Shown piece by piece: positions 20,747 through 58,963 of a stretch of DNA of 64,000 nucleotides. Origin of the DNA: Kineococcus mangrovi (GTDB lineage: Bacteria; Actinomycetota; Actinomycetes; Actinomycetales; Kineococcaceae); assembly GCF_041320705.1 (NCBI RefSeq), contig NZ_JBGGTQ010000001.1, positions 496,001-560,000 of the forward strand, in the 5' to 3' direction. The notes under the pieces were generated by a model. That model saw nothing but the letters and a program-made list of their open reading frames with translations, ran no database searches and had not been told where the DNA came from. Positions within the stretch are counted from its first letter, which is position 1, and each line of letters opens with the position of its first letter. Made by a program: the position numbers and the translations under genes.

Positions 20747-21493
20747 ATGCCCGGGACACGTCACGACCTCGTCGAGGGCCACCTGGGCCTGGCCCGGGGG
20801 CTCGCCGCCCGCTACCGCCACCGCGGCGTCCCGACGGAGGACCTGGAGCAGATCGCCTACCTCGGTCTCGTCAAGGCCGCCGAGCGGTTCCGCGAGGACG
20901 GCGGCCACGACTTCGGGGCCTACGCCACCCCCACCGTCACCGGTGAGATCCGGCGCTACTTCCGCGACCACGGGTGGGCCGTGCGCCCGCCCCGCCGGCT
21001 GCAGGAACTGCGCACGCGGCTCGTCCACGAGGACACGACGGGCCTGACGGACGTGCAGGTCGCGGAGAAGCTGGGCGCGACCCTCGACGAGCTGCGCGAG
21101 GTGCACCGCGCCACGAACGCCTACTCCGCCCTGTCCCTCGACGTCCCCCGGCACGACGTGGCCGCCGACCACGACGCCACGACCACCGTCGACGACCTCG
21201 TCTCGCTCAAGGGGGCCGTGGCCGGGCTGGACGACCGCGAACGGCGGATCCTCGAGCTCCGGTTCTCCGAGGAGGCCACGCAGTCGGAGATCGCCGCCGA
21301 CCTCGGCATCAGCCAGATGCAGGTCTCCCGCCTGCTGGCCTCGATCATCGGCCGGCTGCGCGGCGACCTCGGGGTTCACGTCCCCGTGCGGGAGGTGACC
21401 AGGCCCGTCCGGCGGCGCAGCGCCCCGGACGGTGCGCCCGCGTGGTCGCGGACGCCGTCGAGCAGCTCCACCAGGACGTCCCGGGCCGCGTGA
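20747..21493 (+). CDS. RNA polymerase sigma factor, SigB/SigF type
   Basis: Alternative sigma factor of 248 residues. It lacks region 1, as in the B/F/G class. Region 2 has EDLEQIAYLGLVKAAERF and FGAYATPTVTGEIRRYFRD, matching the FxxYAxPTIxGEIkRyFRD signature. Region 4 contains DDRERRILELRF and an HTH ending in SQMQVSRLLA. Such factors are normally released by anti-sigma/anti-anti-sigma partner switching, and the STAS, HATPase and SpoIIE proteins elsewhere in the window are of the right kind. ATG 20747 follows a perfect GGAGG. The last 35 residues overlap the convergent epimerase gene by 118 bp. Confidence 0.9.
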   Translation: MPGTRHDLVEGHLGLARGLAARYRHRGVPTEDLEQIAYLGLVKAAERFREDGGHDFGAYATPTVTGEIRRYFRDHGWAVRPPRRLQELRTRLVHEDTTGLTDVQVAEKLGATLDELREVHRATNAYSALSLDVPRHDVAADHDATTTVDDLVSLKGAVAGLDDRERRILELRFSEEATQSEIAADLGISQMQVSRLLASIIGRLRGDLGVHVPVREVTRPVRRRSAPDGAPAWSRTPSSSSTRTSRAA

Positions 21494-30704: not shown

Positions 30705-31073
30705 TCAAGACCCCTGCACGTCCACGACGTCGGCCAACCGGGTCACCTCGAGCAGGAACCCGACGGGTTCGCTGGGCCGCACCGCGATGCGCGCGGGCCG
30801 CACGGCGACGGCGAGCCTGGCCAGGAACGCGGCGCCCGCGGAGTCCATGAAGGTGACGGCGGTGGCGTCGACGACGACGGGCCGGACGGCGGCGCGGACC
30901 TCCCGGTCGACCTCGGCGACGACGGCGTCGAGACCGGGGCGGAGCTCGTCGTCGACCTCCCCCGTGAGGCGCACGGTGAGGACGTCGTCGAGGCCCAGCA
31001 GCTGCACGTCACCGGGGGGACCGTCGCCGGCCGGCGAGGGGTCGGGGAAGGGTTCGGGGAAGGGTGTGGCCAC
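30705..31073 (-). CDS. STAS-domain anti-anti-sigma factor
   Basis: A 122-residue RsbV/SpoIIAA-type protein. After a Pro-rich 20-residue leader it has a STAS fold with the phosphorylatable Ser78 in VTFMDSAGAAFL. In partner switching the unphosphorylated form binds the HATPase anti-sigma factor and frees the sigma factor; SpoIIE phosphatases reactivate it. It is the only STAS protein in the window, although three SpoIIE phosphatases are present. It starts at GTG 31071-31073 and is followed by the degenerate HATPase. Confidence 0.88.
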   Translation of the reverse strand: MATPFPEPFPDPSPAGDGPPGDVQLLGLDDVLTVRLTGEVDDELRPGLDAVVAEVDREVRAAVRPVVVDATAVTFMDSAGAAFLARLAVAVRPARIAVRPSEPVGFLLEVTRLADVVDVQGS

Positions 31074-43430: not shown

Positions 43431-45857
43431 GTGGACGCGCACGACGGCCCGCAGCACCCCCACGAGCCCCTGGCCCCCGACGCGGCCGCGCTCTTCGACT
43501 CCCTGCTGGCCGGGGCGCCGCTGGGGATCGGCGTCTTCGACCTCGACCTGCGCCACGTGCGGGTCAACGCCGTCCTCGCCGAGATGAACGGCCGACCCGT
43601 CGAGGAACTCGTCGGCCGGACCCCCGGCGAGGTCAACGGCGAGACCGGGGCGCGCGCCGAGGAGCTGTACCGGCGCGTCATCGCCGACGGCGTGCCCGTG
43701 CGGGACGTGCGCCTGACCGGTGAGGTCAGCGCCCGCCCCGGGCGGCGGCGGCACTGGTCGCTGACGTTCCACCCGGTCCACCGCCCGGGGTCGGCGGAGG
43801 TCACGGGCCTGTGCGTCATCGTCGACGACGTCACCGCCGAGGAGGAGCTGACCCGGTCGCTGGTGGACAGCCGGCGCCGCGTCGAGCAGATCACCGAGAC
43901 GATGGCCGCCGGGTACCTCGTCATGGACACCTCCGTGGACTCCTGGCCGATCACGTACGCCAACCGGCAGGCCGAGGTCGCGCTGGGTCTGCCGCGCGAG
44001 CAGCTCGTGGGCGGGTCGTTGTGGGGCCTGTTCCCGGCCACCGTCGGCACCGCGTTCGAGGCCGGGTACCGCCGGGCGCTGGCGACGGGGTCCCCGTACG
44101 TCTTCGACGCCTACTACCCCCCGCCCCTGGACGCCTGGTACGAGGTGCGGGCGATCCCGGACGGGACGACCCTGACGCTGTACTTCTTGGACGTCAGCGA
44201 GCGGGTCGAGGCGCAGCGCGCGGCCGAGACGGCCGCCGAGCGGGCCGAGCTGCTGGCCCGGGTGAGCGAGCAGCTGAGCGCGCACCGCGACCCGGCCGCG
44301 GCGCTGGGGCTGGTCCCGGGGCTGCTGGTGCCCGCCGTGGCCGACTGGTGCGTGGTCACGGTGCTGGAGGAGTCCGACCGCGCCGACGCCGCGGTGGACG
44401 CCCTCGCCGGCGCAGCCAGCGGGGGCACCCTGGAGGACGCGGACGCGGGTGCGGTGACCCTGGTGCTGGAACACCTCCGCGACGTCGCGGCCCGGCACGC
44501 CGACCCGGTGCTCGACGAGGCCGTGCAGGCGTACTCCGGCGCCCGGCTCGACGCCTACCGCGACCACGCGCGGGCGGGGGCGCAGCACGGCGGCCGGGTC
44601 GCTCCCCCGTTCCTGGTCCGGGCCCTGGTCTCCGGCCGGGCCCAGGTGGTCGAGACCGACCCCACCGGCAGCGTGCAGCGGACGATGGCGCCCGGTGGCG
44701 CCGCGACCGCCCTGCAGCGGTTGCGCCCGCGCACGGCGGTGGCCGTGGCGGTCCGGGCCCGCGGCCGGGCCCTGGGGGTGCTGTCCCTGTGCTGGGACGC
44801 CTCGGGCCCGGCGGACCCGCCGGCCGCCCACCCCGTCGACGCGGCCACCCCCGTCGACGAGCTGGGTGCGGACCCCCGGGCGACCGCCACGGCCCGGCGC
44901 CGTCCCGGGCCGGGGGCCGACGTCCTCACGTTCGTCCAGACGCTGGCCGACCGCATCGGGGCCGCGGTCGACGAGGCCCGGCTGGTGCGGGCGCAGCTGC
45001 AGATCGCCGAGACCCTGCAACGGGCCCTGCTGACCGAGCCGCCGCAGCCGGACCACGCCCACGTCGTCGCCCGGTACCTGCCCGCCGCGGAGGCCGCGCA
45101 GGTCGGCGGCGACTGGTACGACGCGTTCCTGCAGGAGGACGGCGCCAGCGTGCTCGTCATCGGGGACGTCCTCGGGCACGACCGGCGGGCCGCCGCAGCG
45201 ATGGGCCAGGTCCGCACCCTCGTCCGCGCCGCCGCCGTCATGACCGGCCGGGGCCCGGCCGGCGTCCTCGCCGCGACGGACGCGGCCATGACCACGTTGC
45301 AGGTCGGGACGATCGCCACCTGCGTGATCGCCCGGCTGGAGCAGGACGAGGACCTGACCCGGCGCGGGCTGACCCGGGTGCGGTGGTCGGCGGCGGGTCA
45401 CCCGCCGCCGGTCCTCGTCCCGCGGGAGGGTCCCCCCCGGCTGCTGGACGAGCCCGGTCAGCGCGACCTGCTGCTCGGCGTGGCCCCGGGCACGGCGCGG
45501 CACGAGCACGTGGTGGAGGTCGAGCGCGGCAGCACCGTGCTGCTCTACACCGACGGGCTCGTCGAGCGGCGGGGTGAGTCCCTGCAGGTGGGCCTGGAGC
45601 GCCTCCTGGCGGCCGTCGCGGACGCGGTCGCCCGCGAACCGCGCGACGAGGACGGGTACCCCCAGGACGTCGACGCGACCTGCGACGAGGTGCTGCGCCG
45701 CCTGCTGCCCGACCAGCCCGGCGACGACGTCGCCCTCGTGGCGATCCGGCTGCACCGCCAGGACCGGCCGCGGCCGGCGAGCGCCGGTCCGCGCCGGGTG
45801 CCGCCGGTGGTGCCGGACGAGCCCGCCGTGCTGCCGGGCGCGGGGACCGGGGGGTGA
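43431..45857 (+). CDS. PAS-PAS-GAF SpoIIE-type protein phosphatase
   Basis: An 808-residue PP2C-like Ser/Thr phosphatase. Two PAS domains (IGVFDLDLRHVRVNAVLAEM at about 30; then ITYANRQAEVALGLP at about 180) and a GAF-like domain precede the SpoIIE domain (about 530-770). Metal-binding Asp residues appear in GGDWYDAF, VIGDVLGHD and LLYTDGLVERR, so it should be active. Such phosphatases dephosphorylate STAS anti-anti-sigma factors. GTG 43431 is used. Its TGA overlaps the next gene's start (GTGA), coupling it to a histidine kinase. Confidence 0.9.
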   Translation: MDAHDGPQHPHEPLAPDAAALFDSLLAGAPLGIGVFDLDLRHVRVNAVLAEMNGRPVEELVGRTPGEVNGETGARAEELYRRVIADGVPVRDVRLTGEVSARPGRRRHWSLTFHPVHRPGSAEVTGLCVIVDDVTAEEELTRSLVDSRRRVEQITETMAAGYLVMDTSVDSWPITYANRQAEVALGLPREQLVGGSLWGLFPATVGTAFEAGYRRALATGSPYVFDAYYPPPLDAWYEVRAIPDGTTLTLYFLDVSERVEAQRAAETAAERAELLARVSEQLSAHRDPAAALGLVPGLLVPAVADWCVVTVLEESDRADAAVDALAGAASGGTLEDADAGAVTLVLEHLRDVAARHADPVLDEAVQAYSGARLDAYRDHARAGAQHGGRVAPPFLVRALVSGRAQVVETDPTGSVQRTMAPGGAATALQRLRPRTAVAVAVRARGRALGVLSLCWDASGPADPPAAHPVDAATPVDELGADPRATATARRRPGPGADVLTFVQTLADRIGAAVDEARLVRAQLQIAETLQRALLTEPPQPDHAHVVARYLPAAEAAQVGGDWYDAFLQEDGASVLVIGDVLGHDRRAAAAMGQVRTLVRAAAVMTGRGPAGVLAATDAAMTTLQVGTIATCVIARLEQDEDLTRRGLTRVRWSAAGHPPPVLVPREGPPRLLDEPGQRDLLLGVAPGTARHEHVVEVERGSTVLLYTDGLVERRGESLQVGLERLLAAVADAVAREPRDEDGYPQDVDATCDEVLRRLLPDQPGDDVALVAIRLHRQDRPRPASAGPRRVPPVVPDEPAVLPGAGTGG

Positions 45858-46983: not shown

Positions 46984-48456
46984 CTACCGCCCCAGCCGCT
47001 GCGGGGCGTGCCGGACGGGTTCGCGGTAGAGCGGGTACAGCTCCCCCACCGTGGCGTCGGCGGCCTCGGTGTCGAACCACGCCGGGCCGCCGACCCGTTC
47101 GCGCGCCGCGGCGGTCAGCAGGACGGGTCGGCGCGGTCCCGCCGGCTCCCCGAGGCCGACGAGGGGTGAGCCGCGCTCCAGCAGCCGCCGCAGCACGCGC
47201 TCGCCGATGCGGTGGTAGGACAGCGTCTCGACCTCCAACCCCGGCACGGCCACCTTGGCGACGTGCACCGGGCCCCGGGAGGTCTGCACGGCGACGGCGT
47301 GGACGAGGACGTCGAACGCCGCGAGCCGCGCCAGCAGCTCGGTGAGCTCCTCGCCCGGTTCCCGCTCCGGCGCGGTGGGCAGCCCGTGCAGCCCGACGTG
47401 CGACGCGACGCGCAGCATCGGCTCCACCAGCCGGGCCAGCTCGGTCCCGGAGCGGTGCGTCCAGTCCGCCGTCGCCGCCAGCGCGCGGGGTTCGGACTCC
47501 GGCAGCGGGGCGCGCTCCTCGGCGGCCCAGTACGGCCCCAGCCGGGTCCGCACCGGGTCCAGGGGGCCGAACGCGAACGCGCGCCGGGCCCGGGAACTGG
47601 CCAGTTCCAGCAGCGCCTTGCGGGCCGCGCTCGCCGCGTCCAGGGCGGCGGCCTCCCCCACGGCGGTGACGGCCATCGGCGTCCGCTCGGGTGCGGTGTC
47701 GCGGGCGACCGCGTGCACGACGACGGCGAACTCGGTGCTGTCGAGCTTGACCTGCGGTTCCAGGCCCGCGGCCACGAGCGCGGCCCACACGTCGGCGGTC
47801 GCCGGGTGCTCGGCCACCCCGTCCACGAGGACGCCCTGTTCCAGGGCGCGGAAGGAGACGGTGTCGCCGTCGCGCTGCAACAGTTCACCGATGCCGTGGG
47901 CCACGGCGCGCTCCAGGGTGTCCCCGGCCCCCATGCCGTTGGTGATGGGGGTCGTGAGGAAACCCCCGCCCGGGGGCCCGCCGCGGACCCCGCCCGCGTG
48001 CGGGGCGACGAACTCGGCGGGCACGAGCACCTCCTCCCCCGTGCGCCAGCGCCGCATCGGCAGCCAGCGCAGGGGCAGGTCCGGGGAGTACCGGCTGCCC
48101 GCGGGCAGGACGAGTTCGACGGGGTCGACGACGCCGCCGGGACCGCGGGCGGCGAGCAGGTCGGCGAACGTGGCCTCGACGGGGGCGAGGGTGCGCAGGT
48201 GCCGGTCCAGCAGCACCTGCTCGGCCAGTTCGCCGTGGGCGCCGCGACGGGCGGCGGCGGGGTCGGCGCCGTAGCCGACGCCGTGCCCCGACGTCGCCGC
48301 GCCGGGGTGGGGGCGCCACACGGTGCCGGTGACGGGCAGGCCGGTGCGGTCGAACCCCGTGAGGTCGAACTCGAGGAGCTCGGCGCCCGCCCCCACCCCC
48401 AGGGCCTCGGCGTAGCGGTCCGCCGTCGCGTGCGCGCCCGCTGCCGTCCCGCTCAC
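46984..48456 (-). CDS. YcaO-like protein coupled to an ABC importer
   Basis: A 490-residue YcaO-superfamily protein. YcaO enzymes use ATP to activate amide backbones. The signature helix reads TNGMGAGDTLERAVAHGIGE followed by LLQRDGD, so the typical E-x-x-E-R is E-x-x-Q-R. A second motif, ARKALLELASSRARR, resembles the A-L-x-E-x-x-x-R helix. The Pro-rich C-terminus of azoline-forming YcaOs is absent; the end is HAPQRLGR. No precursor peptide, TfuA, dehydrogenase or E1-like gene is nearby. GTG 48454-48456 overlaps the permease stop by 4 nt. Confidence 0.85.
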   Translation of the reverse strand: MSGTAAGAHATADRYAEALGVGAGAELLEFDLTGFDRTGLPVTGTVWRPHPGAATSGHGVGYGADPAAARRGAHGELAEQVLLDRHLRTLAPVEATFADLLAARGPGGVVDPVELVLPAGSRYSPDLPLRWLPMRRWRTGEEVLVPAEFVAPHAGGVRGGPPGGGFLTTPITNGMGAGDTLERAVAHGIGELLQRDGDTVSFRALEQGVLVDGVAEHPATADVWAALVAAGLEPQVKLDSTEFAVVVHAVARDTAPERTPMAVTAVGEAAALDAASAARKALLELASSRARRAFAFGPLDPVRTRLGPYWAAEERAPLPESEPRALAATADWTHRSGTELARLVEPMLRVASHVGLHGLPTAPEREPGEELTELLARLAAFDVLVHAVAVQTSRGPVHVAKVAVPGLEVETLSYHRIGERVLRRLLERGSPLVGLGEPAGPRRPVLLTAAARERVGGPAWFDTEAADATVGELYPLYREPVRHAPQRLGR

Positions 48457-49331: not shown

Positions 49332-50242
49332 TGCTCGTCCTCGCTGGAGCGCTGGGCCCGCCACCACAGGACGGTGGCGGCGAGCACCACGACGAACACG
49401 ACGACACCGATCGCCGATCCGTAGCCTTCGCGGCGGGCGGCGAAACCCTGGCCGTAGGCGTAGGTGACGAGCAGTTCGGTCGACCCGGCGGGCCCGCCCT
49501 TGGTCATGACCCACACGATGTCGAACACCTGGAACGTCTCGATGACCAGCATCACGGTGAGGAAGAACGTCGTGGGCCGCACGAGCGGCCACACGACGTC
49601 CTTGAGCCGCTGCCACGACGACGCCCCGTCCAGCTCGGCGGCCTCCAGGACGTCCCGGTCGATGCCCTGCAGGGCGCTGAGGTAGAGGATCACGGCCAGG
49701 CCGGTGCGGGCCCACAGCAGCACCAGGACGACGGAGACGGCGGCCGCCGTCCCGTCGGACTGCCAGTCCGGTTGCGGCAGACCGACTCCCGCCAGGACGC
49801 GGTCGACGATGCCGACGTTCTGGTCGAAGACCCAGCGGCCCGCCATCGCGACGACGACGCCGGAGATGACGTACGGGGCCAGGAACACGGCCCGGAACAA
49901 CCCCCCGCCGGGGACGCGGTCGCGCAGCAGGAGCGCGAGACCGAGACCGAGACCGAGACTGACCGGCACGGACACCACGGCCAGCAGCGCCGTGTTGCCG
50001 GCTGCCTGCCAGAACGTGGGGTCCGACAGCATGGCCCGGTAGTTGGCCAGCCCGACGAACTGCGCCTGCCCGATGCCGGTCGAGTTCGTCAGCGAGATCC
50101 GCACCGCCCCCACGAGCGGGTACAGCACGAAGACCCCGAACAGCAGCAGGGCCGGGGCGAGCATGAGGTACGACGTCGCCCAGCGGCGCACCGCGGGCCG
50201 GTGGGACGTCGTGGTCCCGGGGTGCGCAGCGGCGGTGCTCAC
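49328..50242 (-). CDS. Sugar-type ABC transporter permease, MalF type
   Basis: Channel subunit of 304 residues with six transmembrane helices. LNSTGIGQ-like N-terminal loop sequence (SLTNSTGIGQAQFVGLANY) and the EAA loop LEAAELDGASSWQRLKDV are as expected, with TKGGPAGSTE following. GTG 50240-50242 overlaps the stop of the binding-protein gene by 4 nt. It pairs with the 48453-49331 product. Confidence 0.92.
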   Translation of the reverse strand: MSTAAAHPGTTTSHRPAVRRWATSYLMLAPALLLFGVFVLYPLVGAVRISLTNSTGIGQAQFVGLANYRAMLSDPTFWQAAGNTALLAVVSVPVSLGLGLGLALLLRDRVPGGGLFRAVFLAPYVISGVVVAMAGRWVFDQNVGIVDRVLAGVGLPQPDWQSDGTAAAVSVVLVLLWARTGLAVILYLSALQGIDRDVLEAAELDGASSWQRLKDVVWPLVRPTTFFLTVMLVIETFQVFDIVWVMTKGGPAGSTELLVTYAYGQGFAARREGYGSAIGVVVFVVVLAATVLWWRAQRSSEDEQ

Positions 50243-51552
50243 GACGTCTGCAGCACCGACGCGACGCCGTCGGTGATCCGCTCCAGCGCCGCGGCGTCGT
50301 CCTCGGAGCCGAGGAACACCTCGTCCAGCCGGTCGCGCAGCTGGGCGTTGATCGCGCTGAAGCTCGGCACGACGACCTGCTGCACGAGCGGTTCGCGGAT
50401 GGCCTTGGCCTGCTCGACGTACAGGGCCATGAGGTCGGGCCGCACGGGGTACTGCAACGTGGTGGCGTCGATGTCGCTGCGGGTGGGCAGCACGGACGCC
50501 TCGGTGCAGAACGCGGACATCTGCTCGGCCTGGGCGCAGTAGGTGAGGAAGGCCAGGGCCTTGTCCTTGTTCGCGCTCGCCTCGACGGCGACGAGGGCGT
50601 TGCCGCCGAGGTCGGCCGACGCGTTGACGTCGCGCGGCAGGAAGGTCGCGGAGTACTCGAACCCGCCGCCTTCGATCTCGCTGAGCAGGAAGTCCCCCGC
50701 GAACGCCGTGGCGACGGTCTGGTTGAGGAACAGGTCGCTGGCCGCCTGCCCGCGGGCGGAGGCGTTCTGCGGGGTGAGCTGGTTGCGGAACAGGTCGCGG
50801 GTGAAGGTGACCGCCTTCAGCGCCCCCGCGTCCCCGGTGGCCACGGACTGCAGGTCCTCGGTGAGCAACCGCCCGCCGGCCTGGTCCACGAAGTTCAGCC
50901 AGCGGTAGGCGCCGGCGTTCTGCCAGTTCGCCGCGAAGGCGTACGTGTCGGCCCGGGAGGGCTGGATGCGTCCGAGGGCGTCGGCGAACTGCTCCCACGT
51001 CCAGGCGTCCTGCAGCGTGGTGGGCAGCGTCCCGAGGCCGGCGGAGGCGACCGCCGCGGTGTTCAGCAGCACCATCGACGTGTCGGTGTGGTGCGGGATC
51101 CCGAACGTGCCGTCGTCGTCGGTGACGGCCGCCCAGAAGGCGGGCAGGAAGGACGGCTCCAGCGTGCTCGCGTCGGTGAGGTCGGCCAGCACCTGTTGGC
51201 GCCGGTAGGCGGCGACGTCGGTGTAGCTGACGCGGAACAGGTCCGGCGGGGAGTCGGTGCGCAGCCCGGTGTCGACGGCCGTGAGGACCTCCGAGTACGG
51301 CACGACCTGCAGGTTCACCGTCGTGCCGGTCTGGGCCGCGAAACCGTCCGCGAGCTTCCTGAACGCGCTCGCCTCGGCGTCCGAGGCCCAGGTGATCATC
51401 GTGAGCGCGTCACCGCCGGAGGATTCCCCGGACCCGCCGGAGCCGGGGGTGGAGAAGCCGCTGCAGGCGGACAGGGCACCGGTCGCGGCGGCGGCGCCGG
51501 CGGCGCCGAGGACCCGCCGGCGGCTGGGGGTGTTCTGGGCAGGGGTGACCAT
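50239..51552 (-). CDS. ABC transporter substrate-binding lipoprotein
   Basis: A 437-residue extracellular binding protein. The leader has PSRRRVLGAAGA, a twin-arginine motif, and the lipobox ALSAC, then a Gly/Ser linker. The mature domain starts LTMITWASDAEASAFRKLAD and has the family-1 carbohydrate-binding fold pattern. It is the first gene of the operon with two permeases and YcaO. The ligand cannot be predicted; the YcaO partner raises the possibility of a modified peptide or unusual glycan. Confidence 0.9.
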   Translation of the reverse strand: MVTPAQNTPSRRRVLGAAGAAAATGALSACSGFSTPGSGGSGESSGGDALTMITWASDAEASAFRKLADGFAAQTGTTVNLQVVPYSEVLTAVDTGLRTDSPPDLFRVSYTDVAAYRRQQVLADLTDASTLEPSFLPAFWAAVTDDDGTFGIPHHTDTSMVLLNTAAVASAGLGTLPTTLQDAWTWEQFADALGRIQPSRADTYAFAANWQNAGAYRWLNFVDQAGGRLLTEDLQSVATGDAGALKAVTFTRDLFRNQLTPQNASARGQAASDLFLNQTVATAFAGDFLLSEIEGGGFEYSATFLPRDVNASADLGGNALVAVEASANKDKALAFLTYCAQAEQMSAFCTEASVLPTRSDIDATTLQYPVRPDLMALYVEQAKAIREPLVQQVVVPSFSAINAQLRDRLDEVFLGSEDDAAALERITDGVASVLQTS

Positions 51553-51608
51553 GGGAACTCCGAATGTCCACGCAGGCGGCTGTCTGCACCTGCTGGTTCT
51601 CGCGCGGG

Positions 51609-51633
51609 ACGGGCACCTCTGGGAAAGGTGTGC
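51609..51633. promoter_or_regulatory. Hairpin upstream of ABC-YcaO operon
   Basis: GGGCAC (51609-51614) and GTGCCC (51628-51633) form a stem whose inner part (CCT and AGG) can pair further. It lies in the 105-bp gap between the HATPase stop (51658) and the binding-protein ATG. It may terminate the photoreceptor operon or act as an operator for the importer operon. Confidence 0.4.
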
Positions 51634-51657
51634 CCAACGTAGCCACGTCGGTCCGGG

Positions 51658-52056
51658 TCAGCCCGTCGGAGTTCTCCCCACGAGGCGGGACCACACGGTC
51701 TTGCCGTCGGCGGCGGGGTCGACCCCCCACTGCGCGCTCAGCACGTCGACGAGGGCGATGCCGCGGCCGCCGAGGGCCCCGGGGTCGACGTGCCGCAGCT
51801 GGGGGGCGTGCGGGTCGGCGTCGTGGACCCGGACCACGACCCCGGCCTCCCCCTCGCACTCCAGGCGCAGGGCCGCCGGCGGTGCGCCGTGCCGGACGGC
51901 GTTGGTGACCAGCTCGGTCACCACCAGGTCGCCCTGGGGTCGCAGCGCGGAGGCGTGGGGACGGCACCAGTGCTCGTCGAGGAACCGCCGGGCGAGACGG
52001 CCCGCCGTCTCGTCCATGACGAGGACGATCTCGGCGGGTGGGGTGAGCTGGCACAT
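51658..52056 (-). CDS. Anti-sigma-type HATPase (RsbW/SpoIIAB-like)
   Basis: A 132-residue serine-kinase-type ATPase. The start at ATG 52054-52056 (MCQLTPPAEI) matches the degenerate paralogue. The canonical site is intact: Glu48 and Asn52 in VTELVTNAVRHG, and the lid GALGGRGIALVD. It should bind a sigma factor and phosphorylate a STAS protein. It lies 52 bp downstream of the LOV phosphatase and is the last gene of a three-gene operon with two photoreceptor phosphatases. No STAS gene is adjacent; the nearest is at 30705. Confidence 0.92.
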   Translation of the reverse strand: MCQLTPPAEIVLVMDETAGRLARRFLDEHWCRPHASALRPQGDLVVTELVTNAVRHGAPPAALRLECEGEAGVVVRVHDADPHAPQLRHVDPGALGGRGIALVDVLSAQWGVDPAADGKTVWSRLVGRTPTG

Positions 52057-52108
52057 CACCTGAACCTTCCCCCGGAAACCCGCGCCCGGCGACCGGAGGG
52101 CCGGGACC

Positions 52109-54253
52109 TCAGAGCCGGACGGCGAGCAGGGCGATGTCGTCGTGGCTGTCGCCGAGCTCGGCGAGCAGGTGCTCGCACAGCGCCTCGGGCTCGTGCGGTG
52201 CCGCGGCGGCCACGCGCGCGAGCCGGTCCATCCCCACGCTGAGCACCTCACCGCGCCGCTCGACGAGCCCGTCGGTGTAGCACAGCAGCAACGACCCCGC
52301 CGGCAACCGCTCGGTGAGCGTGGCCCGCGGGAGGGTGGGTTCGACGCCCAGCGGGATGCCCGAGGCGTCGGGGAGGTACCGCACCGTCCCGTCGGCGTGG
52401 CGCACGAGCAGGGGCGGGTGCCCGGCCGAGGAGTGCTCCACCGACCAGTGGTCCGGACCGTCGGGCGTGAGCCGGGCGTAGCTGACGGTCGCCATGGTCG
52501 TCATGCCGAGGGCGGCGATCAGCTCGTCGACGCGGGTGAGCACGGCGGCCGGGGTCGCCAGCGTCCGGTCCCACGCGCACGCGCGCAGCAGGCCCTTGAG
52601 GTGCCCCATGGCCGCGGCCGCGTACACGTCGTGCCCGGCGACGTCACCGATGACGACGGCGGTCCCGTCCCCCGGCACGTCGATGAGCTCGTAGAAGTCG
52701 CCGCCGACGTCGTTGCCGTCCTGGCCGGCGTGGTAGCGCGCCGCCACCTGCAGACCGGCCACCGTCGGCAGATCCGGCAGCAGGCTGCGCTGCAGCTCGG
52801 TGGCGATGTGGTGCTGCTCCTCGTACAGCCGGGCGTTGTCCAGGAGCAGGCCCGCGCGGCGGCCGAGGTCGACGGCGATGCCCAGGTCGTCGTCGGTGTG
52901 CGCGGGCGCACCCGTGACCCGGACGAGGACCATGAGGTCGTTGTCGGAGCGCCGGCCGGGCAGCGGGACGACGAGCACGGAGGAGACGCCCAGCTCGTCG
53001 GACAGGTCCAGGACGTGCTGGTCCTCCACCCAGCCGCGGCGCAGCTCCCGCACCTGCGGGGAGCCGTAGTCGCCGATGCGGCGGGCGGGGGCCCCCTGCA
53101 GCAGGAGCTCGTGCAGCGGCCCGCGCAGGGTGGTGCGGCGCAGGGCGTCGAGGTAGGCCTCGAACCGGCCGGCGTCCGCCGGGCGCGCGTGCAGCGCGGT
53201 GACCTGACCGATCTGGCCCTTCTCGTCCGGGCTGACGACGACGGCCCAGTCCGCGAGCTGCGGCACGACCAGCTGCAGCAGGCGACGTCGGCACTCGGCG
53301 ACGTCCAGGGTGCCGGACAGCCGGTGGGTCGCCTCGGCGAGCAGGTCGAGCCGGGCCCGGTGCTCCTCGGCCCGGTGCCGCGCCTGCTCGGCCTCGGCGC
53401 GGGCGGCCCGCTCGGCGGCCAGCGCCTCGTCGCGGGCGCGGTCGGCCGCGACGCGGCCGCTGACGTCGGTCTGGATGCCGACGTAGTGCGTGAGCGTCCC
53501 GTCGGGTCCAAAGATCGGGCTCATGGCGACCTGGTTCCAGAAGCCCAGACCGTCCTTGCGGTAGTTCAGCAGCGTCACGGTGACGGGCTCGCCGGCCTCC
53601 AGCGCGTCGCGCATCTGCTGGCGCACCGCGGGGTCGCTGCCGGGCCCCTGCAGGAACCGGCAGTTGCGGCCCACCACCTCCTCGATCGAGTAGCCCGTGG
53701 TGGCGGTGAAGGCGGGGTTGACCCAGACCAGCGGCAGGTCGGGGTCGCGGGCGTCCGCGACGGTGAAGGACAGTCCCGTGGCGAGCACCGCGCGGTCGCG
53801 CAGCACCGCCTGCTCCGTCGCCGCGTCCATGGCCGCCCGGGCGGCGCGCTGGTCGCGCAGGGGCAGGAAGACGACGAGGGCGTGGTCCTCGAGCATCGGG
53901 GCCCCGGCCATCGGCAGCGCCACGACCCACAGGGGTTCGCGCCGGCCACCGAGGTCGCTGCCGGCGGCCGCCGAGACCGCCTGCCCCACCACGGGTTCGG
54001 ACCGCGCGACCCGGGACAGCGGGTGCTCGGTCTCCGACAGCTCCGCCCCGTCGAGGTCGACCAGCCCCGCCGCGTCCGACCAGTCGTCGACCGTGAGCGG
54101 GAGGTCCGCCGCGGGTGCGAGCTGGCGGGCGACGGGGTTGACGTGGACCACCGTCCGCTCGGCCAGGTGCACGAGCAGGACCGCGGCGGGGGCGTCACCG
54201 GTGATGGCGGACACGTCGGCGACGGCGACGTCGTCGCGCGCGGTTCCCTGCAC
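52109..54253 (-). CDS. PAS-LOV-GAF SpoIIE phosphatase, blue-light sensor
   Basis: A 714-residue PP2C-like phosphatase with a flavin-binding LOV domain at about residues 155-265. The photo-adduct Cys198 lies in GRNCRFLQGPGSDP, with Asn230, Asn240 (NYRKDGLGFWN) and Gln261 (YVGIQTDV) as flavin contacts. An N-terminal PAS-like domain precedes it; a coiled coil and GAF domain (about 300-490) follow. The SpoIIE domain carries VGGDFYEL, VIGDVAGHD and CYTDGLVERR. Blue light should therefore control STAS dephosphorylation. GTG 54251-54253 follows GGAGGGGG. It is in an operon with the phytochrome phosphatase upstream and the HATPase downstream. Confidence 0.93.
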   Translation of the reverse strand: MQGTARDDVAVADVSAITGDAPAAVLLVHLAERTVVHVNPVARQLAPAADLPLTVDDWSDAAGLVDLDGAELSETEHPLSRVARSEPVVGQAVSAAAGSDLGGRREPLWVVALPMAGAPMLEDHALVVFLPLRDQRAARAAMDAATEQAVLRDRAVLATGLSFTVADARDPDLPLVWVNPAFTATTGYSIEEVVGRNCRFLQGPGSDPAVRQQMRDALEAGEPVTVTLLNYRKDGLGFWNQVAMSPIFGPDGTLTHYVGIQTDVSGRVAADRARDEALAAERAARAEAEQARHRAEEHRARLDLLAEATHRLSGTLDVAECRRRLLQLVVPQLADWAVVVSPDEKGQIGQVTALHARPADAGRFEAYLDALRRTTLRGPLHELLLQGAPARRIGDYGSPQVRELRRGWVEDQHVLDLSDELGVSSVLVVPLPGRRSDNDLMVLVRVTGAPAHTDDDLGIAVDLGRRAGLLLDNARLYEEQHHIATELQRSLLPDLPTVAGLQVAARYHAGQDGNDVGGDFYELIDVPGDGTAVVIGDVAGHDVYAAAAMGHLKGLLRACAWDRTLATPAAVLTRVDELIAALGMTTMATVSYARLTPDGPDHWSVEHSSAGHPPLLVRHADGTVRYLPDASGIPLGVEPTLPRATLTERLPAGSLLLCYTDGLVERRGEVLSVGMDRLARVAAAAPHEPEALCEHLLAELGDSHDDIALLAVRL

Positions 54254-54339
54254 TGCGTTCCCCCTCCGGCCGAACACCTCCCGGCCCCGGTCCGGGGCAC
54301 AACCCACTGCGGCGCCTGGTCCCGACACCGATCACGACC

Positions 54340-56631
54340 CTAGGTGAGCGCGGCGGGCGGGGCGAGCCGGACCAGGACGAGGGTGGTGTCGTCCTCGGCG
54401 CGGCCGGGGACGGCCCCCAGCAGGCGGTCGGCCACGTCGGGCGGGCTCAGCCCCTCGGCCACCGCGCGGACGGCCTCGTGACCGAGCTGCTCGGTCGTCG
54501 TGGACAGGCTGGCGCCGCGGCGCTCGACGAGGCCGTCGGTGAAGAAGAGCAGCGAGGCCTCGACCGGCACCTGCGCGCTCACCACCTCCCCGGCCGTGCC
54601 GCTGGTCGGGCCGAAGCCGAGGCCGAGCATCGGCCGGGTGGGGACCACGAGCGGGTCCGCGCCCGCCGCCGTGACGAGCAGCGGGGCCGGGTGGCCGGCG
54701 CTGGCGAGCTCCACCGCGGCCGGGGCGCCCGGGCGGGCGGGGTCGGGGCGGCCGACGACGCCCACCACCGCGGTCGCGGTGTGGTTGCCGTTCAGGGTGG
54801 TCACGAGCGCGTCGAGCCGGTCGAGCGCGGCCGCGGGGCTGTGCCCCTCGAGCAGGTAGGCGCGCAGGGCCGTGCGCAGCTGCGCCATGGCCGCGGCCGC
54901 GTGCACGCCGTGGCCGGCCACGTCGCCGACGACCACCGCCACGCGGTCCCCCGGCAGCGGCAGCAGGTCCCACCAGTCCCCGCCGAGCTGGCCCCCGGCG
55001 GCGGGGCGGTACCGCGCGTGCACGTCGAAACCGGGCACCTCCGGCGCCTCGTCGAGGACGACGGCGCGCTGCAGGGACTCCGCGATCGCGATCTGCCCCC
55101 GGGAGCGGCCGAGCATGATCGCGGTGAGCTGGCTCCGCAGCCGTTCGGCCGTCGAGGCGTGCCAGGGCCGCCAGGGCAGGCTGCGGCCCCGCACGACCTC
55201 CTGCCACTTCTCGAAGCTCTTGCGAGGGCTGATCCGCACCTCCGGACCCTCGCCCTCGACGGTCGCGGCCTTCTCGGGGTCCCCGCCCCAGGAGACCGTC
55301 TCGGGCTGTTCGGGGCGGAACCACAGCAGCCAGCCGTCGCCGTCCAGCCCGATGCGCAGCGCCCCCGCGGCCGCCTCGGCGACCTCGCGCAGGCGCGGGT
55401 CGAGGGTGGAGAGGCGGTCGGTGAACGTGACCGCGCCGTCGGCCCGCCCGAGCAACCGCGCCGTGCGCTGGACCTGCGCCCACGGCGGCACCCGCCCGGA
55501 CGTCAGCAGCCGGTGCCCGTCCCAGACCGCGACACCACCGGCACCGAGCAGGTCGACCACGCGCCCGTCCTCCACGAGGGCCGTCAGCGGGTCGCGGCTC
55601 TGCGCCGAGACCCCGGCCAGCACGTCGGACATCAGTTCCTGGGCGGCCAGGGCCTCGTCGCGCTCGCGCGAGCGCGAGCGCTCCCCGACGAGCTGGGACG
55701 TCGTCTGCCCCAGGAACTCCGCCGCGGACCGGGCGTCGTACCCGGGCCGGTGCGGGCCGGAGTAGTGGTGGCAGGCGACCAGGCCCCACAGCCGCCCGTC
55801 GACCAGCAGCGAGATCGACATGGACGAGGTGACGCCCATGTTGTGCAGGTACTCCAGGTGGATCGGCGAGACGCTGCGCAGCACCGACCCGGACAGGTCC
55901 AGGGGGGCGCCCGTGCCCGGGTCGACCAGGGGTTCGAGGCGGACCGGGCGGTAGTCGACGTCCGCGATGAGCCGCGTCCAGTTCAGGGTGTACAGCCGGC
56001 GGGCCTGGGCGGGGATGTCGCTGGCGGGGTAGCGCAGGCCGTGGAAGGGCTCGAGGTCGTCCCGGCGGTCCTCGGCGGCGACCTCCCCGTTCCACTGCGC
56101 GTCGAACCGGTAGACCATGACGCGGTCGAACCCCAGGACGGCGCGGACCTCCCGGGCCAGCCGGCGGCACAGCGCGTCGACGTCCGTCGTCCCCGCCAGG
56201 CGCGCCACCGCGCCGCGGGTGGCGCGGTAGGAGACCGGCTCGACGCCGTGGCCGACGGGTTCGACCTCCACGACCGTCCGGTCGCCGCTGACGTGCACGA
56301 CGACGTCGACGTCGACCTCCGCACCGCCCAGGACCAGGCGCGCGTGCAGGGCCTCGTCCCGGGCGTCGTCGTCCTCGCGCGCCCCGCGCACCCGCGCGGC
56401 CACGTCCTGGCCCAGCAGGTCGGCCAGGTCCGCGCCCAGCACCGACCCCGGCGCCCGGCCGAGCAGCTCGGCGGTGTTCTCCGAGGCGACGACGACGCGG
56501 TGGGACGGCTCCTCGAGGGCGAGCAGGAGGCCGTGGGGCTGGATGGCCCCCGGCACGTGGATGGGTTCGCTCTCGCAGGTCGTCAGGTCGACCTCGCCGT
56601 AGGCGGGGACGTGCTCCTGCGGCTGGGACAC
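54340..56631 (-). CDS. Bacteriophytochrome SpoIIE phosphatase, red/far-red sensor
   Basis: A 763-residue PAS-GAF-PHY photoreceptor with a PP2C output. The biliverdin-attachment Cys19 is in LTTCESEPIHVPG. GAF residues include the DIP motif at 205-207 (RYPASDIPAQARRLY) and His258 (SPIHLEYLHNMG). The PHY tongue has WGG at 448-450 and PRKSF at 469-473. Numbering is within a few residues of the Deinococcus phytochrome. The SpoIIE domain (about 530-755) has LGGDWWDLLPL, VVGDVAGHG and FFTDGLVERR. It should switch phosphatase activity with red and far-red light. No haem oxygenase gene is in the window, so biliverdin must come from elsewhere. Confidence 0.95.
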   Translation of the reverse strand: MSQPQEHVPAYGEVDLTTCESEPIHVPGAIQPHGLLLALEEPSHRVVVASENTAELLGRAPGSVLGADLADLLGQDVAARVRGAREDDDARDEALHARLVLGGAEVDVDVVVHVSGDRTVVEVEPVGHGVEPVSYRATRGAVARLAGTTDVDALCRRLAREVRAVLGFDRVMVYRFDAQWNGEVAAEDRRDDLEPFHGLRYPASDIPAQARRLYTLNWTRLIADVDYRPVRLEPLVDPGTGAPLDLSGSVLRSVSPIHLEYLHNMGVTSSMSISLLVDGRLWGLVACHHYSGPHRPGYDARSAAEFLGQTTSQLVGERSRSRERDEALAAQELMSDVLAGVSAQSRDPLTALVEDGRVVDLLGAGGVAVWDGHRLLTSGRVPPWAQVQRTARLLGRADGAVTFTDRLSTLDPRLREVAEAAAGALRIGLDGDGWLLWFRPEQPETVSWGGDPEKAATVEGEGPEVRISPRKSFEKWQEVVRGRSLPWRPWHASTAERLRSQLTAIMLGRSRGQIAIAESLQRAVVLDEAPEVPGFDVHARYRPAAGGQLGGDWWDLLPLPGDRVAVVVGDVAGHGVHAAAAMAQLRTALRAYLLEGHSPAAALDRLDALVTTLNGNHTATAVVGVVGRPDPARPGAPAAVELASAGHPAPLLVTAAGADPLVVPTRPMLGLGFGPTSGTAGEVVSAQVPVEASLLFFTDGLVERRGASLSTTTEQLGHEAVRAVAEGLSPPDVADRLLGAVPGRAEDDTTLVLVRLAPPAALT

Positions 56632-56687
56632 CGGGCTCCTCGGGCGACGTGGCGGCGGTCCTGGCCAGACCGTCGTCCTCCCCCACC

Positions 56688-57557
56688 CTACGTGCGGCTC
56701 CCCCCACCCCGGCGGACGTCGGTGTCGGCGCGCTGCGCACGGCGCACGACGTGGACCCGGGGCCCGGCCCGCTCGATGGCGCGCAGGTCGGCCTCGGCGG
56801 CACCGTCGTCGGTCACCACGTCGTCGACCGCCGCGAGGTCCGCGACCGGTGCCAGCGTGACCCGCCCGATCTTGGAGGAGTCGACGACGACGACGGACCG
56901 CTGGGCCCCGGCGACCATCGCGGCGTTCGTGCGGGCCTCCACCTCGTCGTGGGTGGTGACGCCGCCAGCGGCGCTCACCCCGTCGGCCCCGAGGAAGGCG
57001 ATCCCGGTGTTGAGGGCCGAGAACGAGCTCTCGGCGAGGGCGCCGACGATCTCGAGGGAGCTGGGCCGGACCGTGCCGCCCGTCACCAGGACCCGCAGGT
57101 TCTGCCGCCCCCCGATCTCGGCGGCGGTGGTGAGGGAGTTCGTGAGGATCGTCAGGTCGGCGCGGAACACCAGGGACCGCGCCACCTCGGCCGCGGTCGT
57201 CCCCCCGCCGATGGCCACCGCGAACGGACCCGGCGGCAGGAACGTCGCGGCCCGGCGGGCGATCAGCCGCTTCACCTCCGGGGAGGTGCCCGTGCGCAAC
57301 CGCACGGGGATCTCGACGGCCGCGGCGGTGGTCCGGGCCCCGCCGTGGGTCCGCACGACGAGGCCCTGCGCCTCCAGGTCGGCGAGGTCGCGGCGCACGG
57401 TGGCGACCGAGACGGACAGCTCCTCCACGAGCCGGTGGAGGCTGACCGGCGCCTGCGCGGCGCCGAGCTCGGCCAGCAACCGCAGTTCGGCGCGGAGCCG
57501 GTGGGCGCGCTTGCCGGGACCCAGCGGGTGGTCCGCCTCCGGCGTCGTGGGGGTCAT
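56688..57557 (-). CDS. DeoR-family transcriptional regulator
   Basis: A 289-residue repressor-type protein. The winged HTH at about residues 20-75 has SVSVATVRRDLADLEAQGLV, and the C-terminal DeoRC sugar-phosphate sensor has AIGGGTTAAEVAR and TNSLTTAAEIG, with a KIGR lysine loop (VVDSSKIGRVTLAPVA). ATG 57555-57557. It is divergent from the GH4-importer operon, with a palindrome between, and is likely its repressor, sensing a sugar phosphate made by the pathway. It is also 56 bp upstream of the phytochrome gene on the same strand. Confidence 0.92.
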   Translation of the reverse strand: MTPTTPEADHPLGPGKRAHRLRAELRLLAELGAAQAPVSLHRLVEELSVSVATVRRDLADLEAQGLVVRTHGGARTTAAAVEIPVRLRTGTSPEVKRLIARRAATFLPPGPFAVAIGGGTTAAEVARSLVFRADLTILTNSLTTAAEIGGRQNLRVLVTGGTVRPSSLEIVGALAESSFSALNTGIAFLGADGVSAAGGVTTHDEVEARTNAAMVAGAQRSVVVVDSSKIGRVTLAPVADLAAVDDVVTDDGAAEADLRAIERAGPRVHVVRRAQRADTDVRRGGGSRT

Positions 57558-57568
57558 CGGGAATCCGA

Positions 57569-57581
57569 TCAGAAGTTCTGA
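57569..57581. promoter_or_regulatory. Perfect palindrome in DeoR/GH4 divergent region
   Basis: TCAGAAGTTCTGA is a perfect inverted repeat with arms TCAGAA and TTCTGA around one base. It lies 11 bp upstream of the regulator ATG and 53 bp upstream of the GH4 ATG. The position suits an operator for the adjacent DeoR protein controlling both directions. Confidence 0.6.
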
Positions 57582-57634
57582 GCGCTTCGCGCAGATCGTT
57601 GCACGGGACTGCGCGACCCGCTCACCATCGGGCC

Positions 57635-58963
57635 ATGACACGAGTGACCTTCGTCGGGGCGGGCAGCGTGGTCTTCACCCGGCAGCTCGTCGCCGACCTC
57701 GTCCGGTTCGACGACCTGGGCCCCCTCGACCTCGTCCTCCTCGACGTCGACGAGCGGCGGCTGCGGGTGGCCGACGGCACCGCGCGCCAGGTCGTCGAAC
57801 GCCTCGGCGGGAACCGCCGCACCGGGGTGTCCATCACGTCCACCACCGAGCGCCGGCGAGCGCTCGCGGACGCCGACGTCGTCGTCGACATGGTGCAGGT
57901 CGGCGGGATCGAGGCGACCCGCCGCGACCTGGAGATCCCGGCCCGGTACGGCCTGCGGCAGACGATCGGCGACACGACGGGGGTCGGCGGGGTGTTCCGG
58001 GCCCTGCGCACCTTCCCGTTCCTGTCCGCCCTGGCCGCCGACGTGCGCGACGTCGCCCCCGGCGCGGTCCTGCTGAACTACACGAACCCGATGGCGATGA
58101 ACGTCTGGTGGCTGGACGTCGTCGCCCCCGAGCTGACCACCCTGGGCCTGTGCCACAGCGTGTACTGGACCGCGCACGACCTCGCTGAACTCGTCGGCGT
58201 CCCCGTCGAGCGGACCCGCTTCCGCGCCGCCGGCGTGAACCACCAGTCGTGGCTGCTGGAGTGGACGCACGAGGGCCGCGACCTGTACCCGGTGCTGCGC
58301 GAGCGGATCGCCGCCGACCCCGGGCTCGGGCGTCGCGTCCGCGTCGAGGTGTTCCGCCGGATCGGGTACTACCCGACCGAGACGAGCGAGCACTCCTCGG
58401 AGTACCTGCCGTGGTTCCTGCGCTCGGACGAGCAGGTGGAGCGGTTCCGCCTGCAACCCCTGGAGTACCTCGGCGTCTCCGAGGCCAACGTCCAGGAGTT
58501 CCTCACCGCCGAGCGGGTCCTGGCCGCGGGTGGCGCCCTGGAGCTGGAGGACGGGGCCACGGAGTACGCGCCGCAGGTCATCCACTCCCTGGTCACGGGG
58601 ACCTCGCGGGAGATCCACGCCAACGTCGTCAACCGCGGGCTGGTCGACAACCTGCCGGCGGGGTGCGTCGTGGAGGTCCCGACGCTCGTCGGCGCCGACG
58701 GCGTCCGGCCGGTCCCGATGGGGTCCCTGCCGGTGCAGGCCGCCGCGGTGAACCGCCCGTACGTGTCGGTCGCCGAGCTGACCGTCGAGGCGGCCCGGAC
58801 CGGGGACCCGCGCCTGCTGCGCCAGGCGGTGCTCGTCGACCCCAACGCCTCCTCGACGCTCACCCCCGAGCAGATCTGGTCGATGTGCGACGAGCTCGTC
58901 CTCGCCCACGGCGACCTCCTGCCCGAAGCCCTGCGCGAGACGCTGCCGGCGGACGCGCTGTGA
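57635..58963 (+). CDS. Glycoside hydrolase family 4 protein
   Basis: A 442-residue NAD- and metal-dependent glycosidase. The Rossmann start VTFVGAGSVVFTRQL, the metal-binding Cys in GLCHSVYW and the GVNHQSWLLE His are GH4 signatures. The QTIGDTTGVGGVFRALRTFP segment is of the alpha-galactosidase/alpha-glucosidase (MelA/LplD-like) branch. GH4 enzymes act on imported, sometimes phosphorylated, sugars. It starts at ATG 57635 and is the first gene of the operon with the importer, AgaS-like and kinase genes. Exact specificity cannot be read. Confidence 0.9.
   Translation: MTRVTFVGAGSVVFTRQLVADLVRFDDLGPLDLVLLDVDERRLRVADGTARQVVERLGGNRRTGVSITSTTERRRALADADVVVDMVQVGGIEATRRDLEIPARYGLRQTIGDTTGVGGVFRALRTFPFLSALAADVRDVAPGAVLLNYTNPMAMNVWWLDVVAPELTTLGLCHSVYWTAHDLAELVGVPVERTRFRAAGVNHQSWLLEWTHEGRDLYPVLRERIAADPGLGRRVRVEVFRRIGYYPTETSEHSSEYLPWFLRSDEQVERFRLQPLEYLGVSEANVQEFLTAERVLAAGGALELEDGATEYAPQVIHSLVTGTSREIHANVVNRGLVDNLPAGCVVEVPTLVGADGVRPVPMGSLPVQAAAVNRPYVSVAELTVEAARTGDPRLLRQAVLVDPNASSTLTPEQIWSMCDELVLAHGDLLPEALRETLPADAL

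Follow-up and report, generated by a model that had tools for sequence, protein, structure and literature searches.

The putative light-sensing gene cluster

We analyzed a 64,000-nucleotide stretch of the Kineococcus mangrovi genome (contig NZ_JBGGTQ010000001.1, positions 496,001 to 560,000; hereafter the window), in which the genes of two putative light-controlled phosphatases are followed by that of a small kinase, here called KIN. All three open reading frames are intact and co-directional:

54340..56631, minus strand: bacteriophytochrome (PAS-GAF-PHY)-SpoIIE/PPM phosphatase fusion, 763 amino acids, start GTG 56631; Pfam PAS_2, GAF, PHY and SpoIIE
52109..54253, minus strand: LOV-SpoIIE/PPM phosphatase, 714 amino acids, start GTG 54253; Pfam PAS families, among them PAS_9, and SpoIIE
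51658..52059, minus strand: KIN, HATPase_c_2 GHKL kinase of predicted anti-sigma (SpoIIAB/UsfX/RsbW) fold, 132-133 amino acids; Pfam PF13581

An earlier model-generated reading of this DNA, made without database searches (the sequence-only reading), had described three co-directional genes of these types separated by 86 and 52 bp. The frames lie where it placed them, on the minus strand and with agreeing Pfam domains; the gap between the phytochrome and LOV genes measures 86 bp, and that between LOV and KIN 52 bp if KIN starts at ATG 52056, or 49 bp if it starts at GTG 52059. The LOV start GTG 54253 was picked by eye from an upstream purine run, the alternative being GTG 54328. The stretch between the LOV and SpoIIE domains of this protein carries no Pfam name.

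A residue check found every chromophore residue at the number that the sequence-only reading had given: Cys19, DIP 205-207 and PRKSF 469-473 in the phytochrome, and Cys198 (GRNCRFLQ), Asn230, Asn240 and Gln261, counted from GTG 54253, in the flavin-binding LOV domain. The phytochrome residues are invariant in 9/9 aligned phytochrome-SpoIIE proteins except for the variable K of PRKSF, and the LOV residues are invariant in 9/9 LOV orthologues, the window copy counted among them. The metal-binding Asp motifs, likewise claimed to be complete, are present in both phosphatases (GGDW/GDVAGHG/TDGL/DDTT in the phytochrome protein, GGDF/GDVAGHD/TDGL/DDIA in the LOV protein). With these residues in place, red/far-red control of the one phosphatase through the phytochrome and blue-light control of the other through the LOV domain are each very likely. 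The PRxSF motif stands 80 residues from the PPM GGDW motif in 28/28 phytochrome-SpoIIE proteins, a constancy that points to a rigid helical link in the phytochrome fusions. The LOV-to-PPM spacing takes 18 different values among 35 frames of named records.

Gene order and phylogeny across Kineococcus

We compared 11 Kineococcus genomes, the window genome being G000; all counts of KIN refer to the matches listed. A phytochrome of this kind (at least 65% identity over the sensor part), in each case with SpoIIE, is present in 9/11 genomes, and so is a LOV orthologue (at least 62% identity). KIN (at least 72%) is found in four: the window genome, G148, G162 and G078. The order proposed by the sequence-only reading was recovered in part: LOV, KIN and the following ATP-binding cassette (ABC) importer genes stand together in 4/4 KIN genomes, whereas phytochrome, LOV and KIN are combined in only 2/11, the window genome and G148. 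The phytochromes of these two species are 86% identical, and each is the single phytochrome match of its genome. Across the genus the phytochrome context varies.

The LOV tree unites the four KIN species (support 96/98). In the phytochrome tree, the window and G148 proteins group (100/100) with the phytochromes of G032, G092, G048, G106 and one G120 copy, and the heme-oxygenase-linked ones of G078 and G162 fall outside it; G120 carries both types. Because the phytochrome tree splits four species that the LOV tree unites, a different phytochrome appears to have been placed upstream of LOV-KIN, either by transfer or through differential loss from an old pair.

Heme oxygenase genes add to this history. 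The window genome carries one at C1:493970-494533, ~1.5 kb left of the window and 72% identical to the G078 gene, and such a gene occurs in exactly the nine of 11 genomes that have a phytochrome of this kind. It overlaps the phytochrome gene in G078 and G162, and also neighbours it in G048, G106, one G120 copy and the sister genus G064. In G148 it runs straight into the gene that follows the phytochrome in G078. Next to the heme oxygenase genes of the window genome and G148, a search for remains of a phytochrome gene gave chance-level matches only. Biliverdin for the phytochrome could be supplied by the genome's own predicted heme oxygenase. A Pfam family search had reported heme oxygenase as absent (0/11), which the Pfam score of the G078 protein (28.5 bits; Heme_oxygenase cut-off 23) and the genes found by identity search expose as a false negative; the G048 and G162 proteins score 22.3 and 20.6 bits.

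A second LOV-SpoIIE gene, a paralogue 45-50% identical to the first, is accompanied in 8/11 genomes by a convergent KIN-like HATPase gene 0.7-0.8 kb beyond the sensor part. The KIN-like gene lies 3.3-3.4 kb off in G106 and G078, with another SpoIIE-type match between, and no nearby KIN-like gene was seen in G092. This second pair (e.g. L106, L202) is more widespread than the LOV-KIN pair of the window.

Promoter-like elements and probable transcription units

The window has 75% G+C, and its 64 kb contain no more than 20 copies of TANNNT, both strands counted. Fifteen of them fall in the zone 4-105 bp ahead of a same-strand gene start, as called by our own gene-calling script, a zone that makes up 4.4% of strand positions; TANNNT is a very clean −10 marker in this DNA. 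The elements at the cluster are as follows:

56685..56690, minus strand: TAGGGT, −10-like hexamer of the phytochrome gene, 59 bp ahead of the GTG and sharing bases with the stop codon of the preceding DeoR-family regulator gene
54337..54342, minus strand: TAGGGT, −10-like hexamer of LOV-KIN, 89 bp ahead of the LOV GTG and sharing bases with the stop codon of the phytochrome gene
51636..51641, minus strand: TACGTT, −10-like hexamer ahead of the gene for the ABC substrate-binding protein, which it may set apart from KIN

At the LOV gene, TAGG[CGA]T is found 46-95 bp upstream in 9/9 orthologues, even with other upstream neighbours. The phytochrome element recurs at the matching place in G148, and its spacing is not conserved in the other phytochromes checked. 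No −10-like element precedes KIN within 150 bp in any of the four KIN genomes, and TANNNT lies 51-91 bp upstream of the ABC gene in all four, so that the ABC substrate-binding gene is probably on a transcript separate from KIN. A sigma-70 promoter scan of 50000-58200 returned no site. The terminator scan found one site where 0.9 were expected, and no terminator-like site between the three genes. A SigB/SigF-type promoter was sought before the cluster with the consensus pattern G[GT]TT-N13-19-GGGTA and was not found; elsewhere in the window the pattern has two matching sites, and at one of these it fits in two overlapping registers.

From these promoter-like patterns, the likeliest units are the phytochrome gene alone, with possible read-through, then LOV-KIN, then the importer. 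The sequence-only reading had instead proposed that all three genes form a single operon through which two colours of light gate a stress sigma factor. Co-directionality, gaps of 86 and ~50 bp, the lack of a terminator-like site between the genes and possible read-through from the phytochrome promoter favour this proposal, and joint transcripts may occur; the separate −10-like elements before phytochrome and LOV, the latter with its counterpart in all nine orthologues, and the lack of a linked sigma gene argue against it, and we consider it quite unlikely.

We think it reasonably probable that the locus encodes two light-gated RsbU/SpoIIE-type PPM phosphatases and one anti-sigma-fold STAS kinase, with LOV-KIN as the older unit and the phytochrome added upstream. 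The LOV phosphatase and KIN would form a two-gene unit, served by a promoter of its own, that predates the cluster. Directly upstream of it, in the ancestor of the two species, a phytochrome phosphatase from another lineage within the genus would have landed, likewise with its own promoter, and the phytochrome that adjoined the heme oxygenase gene would have been lost.

Several observations weigh against a convergence of both colours on this kinase. The three-gene grouping is rare, and it represents one evolutionary event, since its two genomes are close relatives; the case for a two-colour gate depends on the genes being neighbours in this one pair of species. Phytochromes of the same clade occur without KIN in five genomes (G032, G092, G048, G106, G120), as do LOV orthologues in another set of five (G032, G120, G134, G106, G014), so both phosphatases have other partners elsewhere, and the claim that they both feed this one kinase does not follow from the gene distribution. 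Nor can partners be assigned by presence alone, because the window genome holds 22 SpoIIE loci (23 matches, two being halves of one frame) and 28 HATPase_c_2 matches, of which 21 exceed the cut-off, histidine kinases among them; STAS proteins are also numerous, with 13 STAS_2 matches, 9 of them above the cut-off.

The genes may accordingly be neighbours without convergence: LOV-KIN would be a blue-light module, and the phytochrome phosphatase would serve a different STAS protein or kinase, as related phosphatases have to where KIN is lacking, having merely landed upstream. The separate −10-like elements, the same-clade phytochromes without KIN, the varied phytochrome contexts and the presence of the trio in just two genomes all favour this explanation. 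Set against it are the adjacency retained since the split of the window genome and G148 and the LOV-proximal position of the sole phytochrome match in both. We regard it as a real possibility that falls somewhat short of probable.

The kinase and its candidate substrate

KIN matches HATPase_c_2 (PF13581) with 37 bits (cut-off 27.4). Its motifs are the N-box ELVTNAVRHG, HDADP, a GGRG lid and GKTVW; the N-box Glu and Asn and the Gly-rich lid are intact. The G1 box of SpoIIAB has the consensus DxGxG. That of KIN reads DADP, not DxGxG, and a Pro-containing form is usual among its relatives in the genus. A first structural model was too poor (predicted local distance difference test score, pLDDT, 68); the model used here reached a pLDDT of 89 on a 36-row alignment of genus sequences that excluded the rows of ATP2, the paralogue described below. 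The 12 PDB chains that match this model best all belong to entries of anti-sigma factors, namely UsfX, SpoIIAB, RsbW and the RsbW part of Rv1364c, to which KIN is 16-23% identical. A PDB search by sequence with a four-row KIN profile retrieved no anti-sigma factor and two DevS-type sensor ATPase domains (E values 0.001-0.003). On the predicted structure, KIN is RsbW-like in fold but not canonical in every motif, since the structural matches are to anti-sigma factors and the N-box and lid are intact, yet the G1 box is DADP. Of the proposed canonical RsbW-like ATPase with a full ATP site, the fold, N-box and lid stand, and 'canonical' is too strong in view of the G1 box.

The substrate had been placed outside the proposed operon, and no STAS gene is present in the cluster, which is a further point against the proposed switch; the sole STAS_2 match in the window, at 30744-30974, falls within the first of two adjoining genes:

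30705..31073, minus strand: STAS2, STAS-domain protein with an FMDSAG site, candidate substrate; Pfam STAS 32 bits
30289..30666, minus strand: ATP2, degenerate HATPase encoded next to STAS2 and sister to KIN as a paralogue

STAS2 has orthologues (56-77% identity) in the four KIN genomes, the next STAS protein reaching at most 53%, and the FMDSAG site is kept with its Ser in 4/4. The ATP2 copies of the other three genomes are 84-94% identical to the window copy, and in 4/4 the N-box Asn is replaced by Glu and the G2 box and lid are lost; ATP2 matched no Pfam family at E 0.001. In the kinase tree (42 rows, leaving out duplicate loci, some weak rows and fragments below 95 residues), ATP2 is the sister of KIN with support 98/97. 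Among the matches listed, KIN, ATP2 and STAS2 are confined to one and the same set of four genomes.

A STAS protein is very probably the class of substrate. STAS2 is the best candidate, because KIN's sister ATP2 pairs with it and all three share the same four genomes, and we propose it tentatively as the substrate of KIN. The co-occurrence counts as a single event and is weak evidence for the pairing, because the four genomes form one supported clade. In the mechanism we propose, KIN would phosphorylate a STAS protein encoded elsewhere, possibly STAS2; blue light sensed by LOV and red/far-red light sensed by the phytochrome would alter the geometry of the phosphatase dimers and with it the dephosphorylation of a STAS protein, whose state would set which partner is held by KIN or by the degenerate ATP2. 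That both colours act on the same STAS protein is conceivable but somewhat doubtful. In a more elaborate version, active KIN and its sister with a broken ATP site would share STAS2 as a split kinase pair forming the two-colour gate: ATP2 would be a phosphorylation-blind STAS2 sink, KIN and the two phosphatases would govern how far STAS2 is phosphorylated, and light colour would divide STAS2 between a live and a dead partner. We consider this version improbable. A conserved dead ATPase with its own STAS protein poses a puzzle about pseudokinases in partner switches.

Possible signal output

A stress sigma factor had been named as the output of the switch. The absence of a sigma gene in or near the cluster counts against it. 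A SigB-like gene of the genome, at C1:641933, exceeds the cut-off with 268.6 bits and stands directly downstream of a weak HATPase-like gene (25.7 bits, cut-off 27.4) that belongs to a lineage other than KIN and was not retrieved by the KIN profile. Because another HATPase-like gene precedes that sigma gene, nothing ties KIN to the SigB-like factor, and the claim of a sigma output is not supported at this locus. As the output of the system in general, a sigma factor is possible, on a less than firm footing.

The window itself encodes a SigB/F/G-like sigma factor at 20747-21490 (plus strand; TIGR02980 184 bits, below the cut-off) with no HATPase_c_2 match beside it.

KIN might instead be a STAS kinase that is not an anti-sigma factor and has another output, such as the neighbouring ABC importer or some other partner protein. 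The same importer genes follow KIN in all four KIN genomes, no sigma gene is nearby, and the genome is rich in HATPase and STAS proteins. Wider synteny could account for this neighbourhood, however; a promoter-like element of their own precedes the importer genes in 4/4 genomes, and the closest solved folds to KIN are anti-sigma factors. Such an output seems rather unlikely.

Candidate partner-switching genes in other families

We read 30 of the 43 phytochrome matches from the order as loci, and three more separately (one with SpoIIE, two without). SpoIIE is the output domain in 28/30. Neighbours were counted in the wider regions of 20 loci from other families; two with a GGDEF output were left out, giving n=18. 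STAS and HATPase_c_2 genes, both over the Pfam cut-off, lie within ~2.3 kb of the phytochrome in 4/18 (L314, L316, L317, L318). One partner over the cut-off is adjacent in 5/18 more: STAS in L315, L319 and L328, and HATPase in L325 and L327; L319 also has a HATPase just below the cut-off, and in L320 the adjoining STAS falls just below it (28.5 of 29.2). The count cuts the other way as well: the four complete loci all belong to one family (f9), and neither gene is adjacent in 8/18, two of these being short contigs and one having a STAS gene ~5.5 kb off. The neighbours support STAS and kinase partners for phytochrome-SpoIIE phosphatases as a group, a statement that stops short of proof for the protein of the window. 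L314, L316, L317 and L318 are compact candidate light-controlled partner-switch loci.

Taken as a whole, the interpretation offered by the sequence-only reading is supported in part. Two light-gated PPM phosphatases and a switch kinase of anti-sigma fold are very likely, and the heme oxygenase gene, the STAS/HATPase neighbours in some relatives and the placing of STAS2 as best candidate substrate agree with it; the operon, the shared kinase and the sigma output are not supported.

Neighbouring genes

The cluster is flanked on the same strand by two genes:

56688..57641, minus strand: DeoR-family regulator, directly upstream of the phytochrome gene, likewise in G148
50239..51552, minus strand: ABC substrate-binding protein (SBP_bac_1; presumably sugar-type), after KIN in 4/4 KIN genomes

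A YcaO-domain gene (46987-48456, minus strand) follows the ABC importer, also in G148. A further PAS-SpoIIE phosphatase is encoded at 43431-45854 on the plus strand, and the gene adjoining it resembles a histidine kinase by eye.

Comparison with known systems

The locus offers a small, testable gene set in which blue and red light would be combined by protein phosphatases, not by two-component kinases. The phytochrome-SpoIIE proteins, with their fixed 80-residue link and, in some relatives, adjacent STAS and kinase genes, could serve as ready-made systems for light-controlled partner switching.

The sequence-only reading held that each fusion type was already known separately, and the literature agrees. 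The legend to Fig. 2 of PMC9587094 names bacteriophytochrome-SpoIIE/PPM as an effector class, and a passage of PMC4844311 lists LOV-SpoIIE as typical among the outputs of flavin-based blue-light receptors in prokaryotes. Passages of two further papers describe varied sensor domains on PPM phosphatases (PMC12143880) and a B12/bilin photoreceptor that is predicted to be linked to SpoIIE and STAS proteins (PMC10979010). Among the papers listed in a mostly open-access literature search, no title or abstract describes a cluster of phytochrome-SpoIIE, LOV-SpoIIE and kinase. The parts are known separately; their grouping is rare in the relatives that we compared.

The window's phytochrome gene has the same domain order as known bacteriophytochrome-SpoIIE/PPM fusions, and differs from them in adjoining LOV-SpoIIE and KIN, not a heme oxygenase gene. 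LOV loci were compared in the best 80 of at least 587 relatives. LOV and SpoIIE domains share one frame in 40 of these 80 best-ranked named loci, 34 by strict motifs. No phytochrome gene lies beside any of the 80 within the available flanks, the sole phytochrome-type match (L254, 17 bits) being inside the LOV frame itself, and in this the LOV-SpoIIE gene of the window, with a phytochrome gene alongside, stands apart.

The closest solved folds to KIN are M. tuberculosis Rv1364c and UsfX/SigF and Bacillus SpoIIAB/RsbW (3ke6, 8jzt, 8ih8, 1th8, 6m36). KIN, 16-23% identical to them in sequence, differs from those anti-sigma factors in its Pro-containing G1 box and in the lack of a sigma gene alongside.

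The nearest functional parallel is Bacillus subtilis, where, according to a passage of PMC3019169, blue light (through YtvA, a LOV-STAS protein) and red light (via RsbP/Q) both reach SigB; the same source states that no phytochrome was detected in Bacillus or Listeria genomes. As in the RsbU/RsbP-RsbV-RsbW system of B. subtilis, the proposed switch would combine sensor-bearing PPM phosphatases with a GHKL kinase and a STAS protein. Unlike in B. subtilis, both the blue and the red sensor of the window are fused to phosphatases, red light would enter through a true phytochrome, and the STAS and sigma genes lie outside the cluster.

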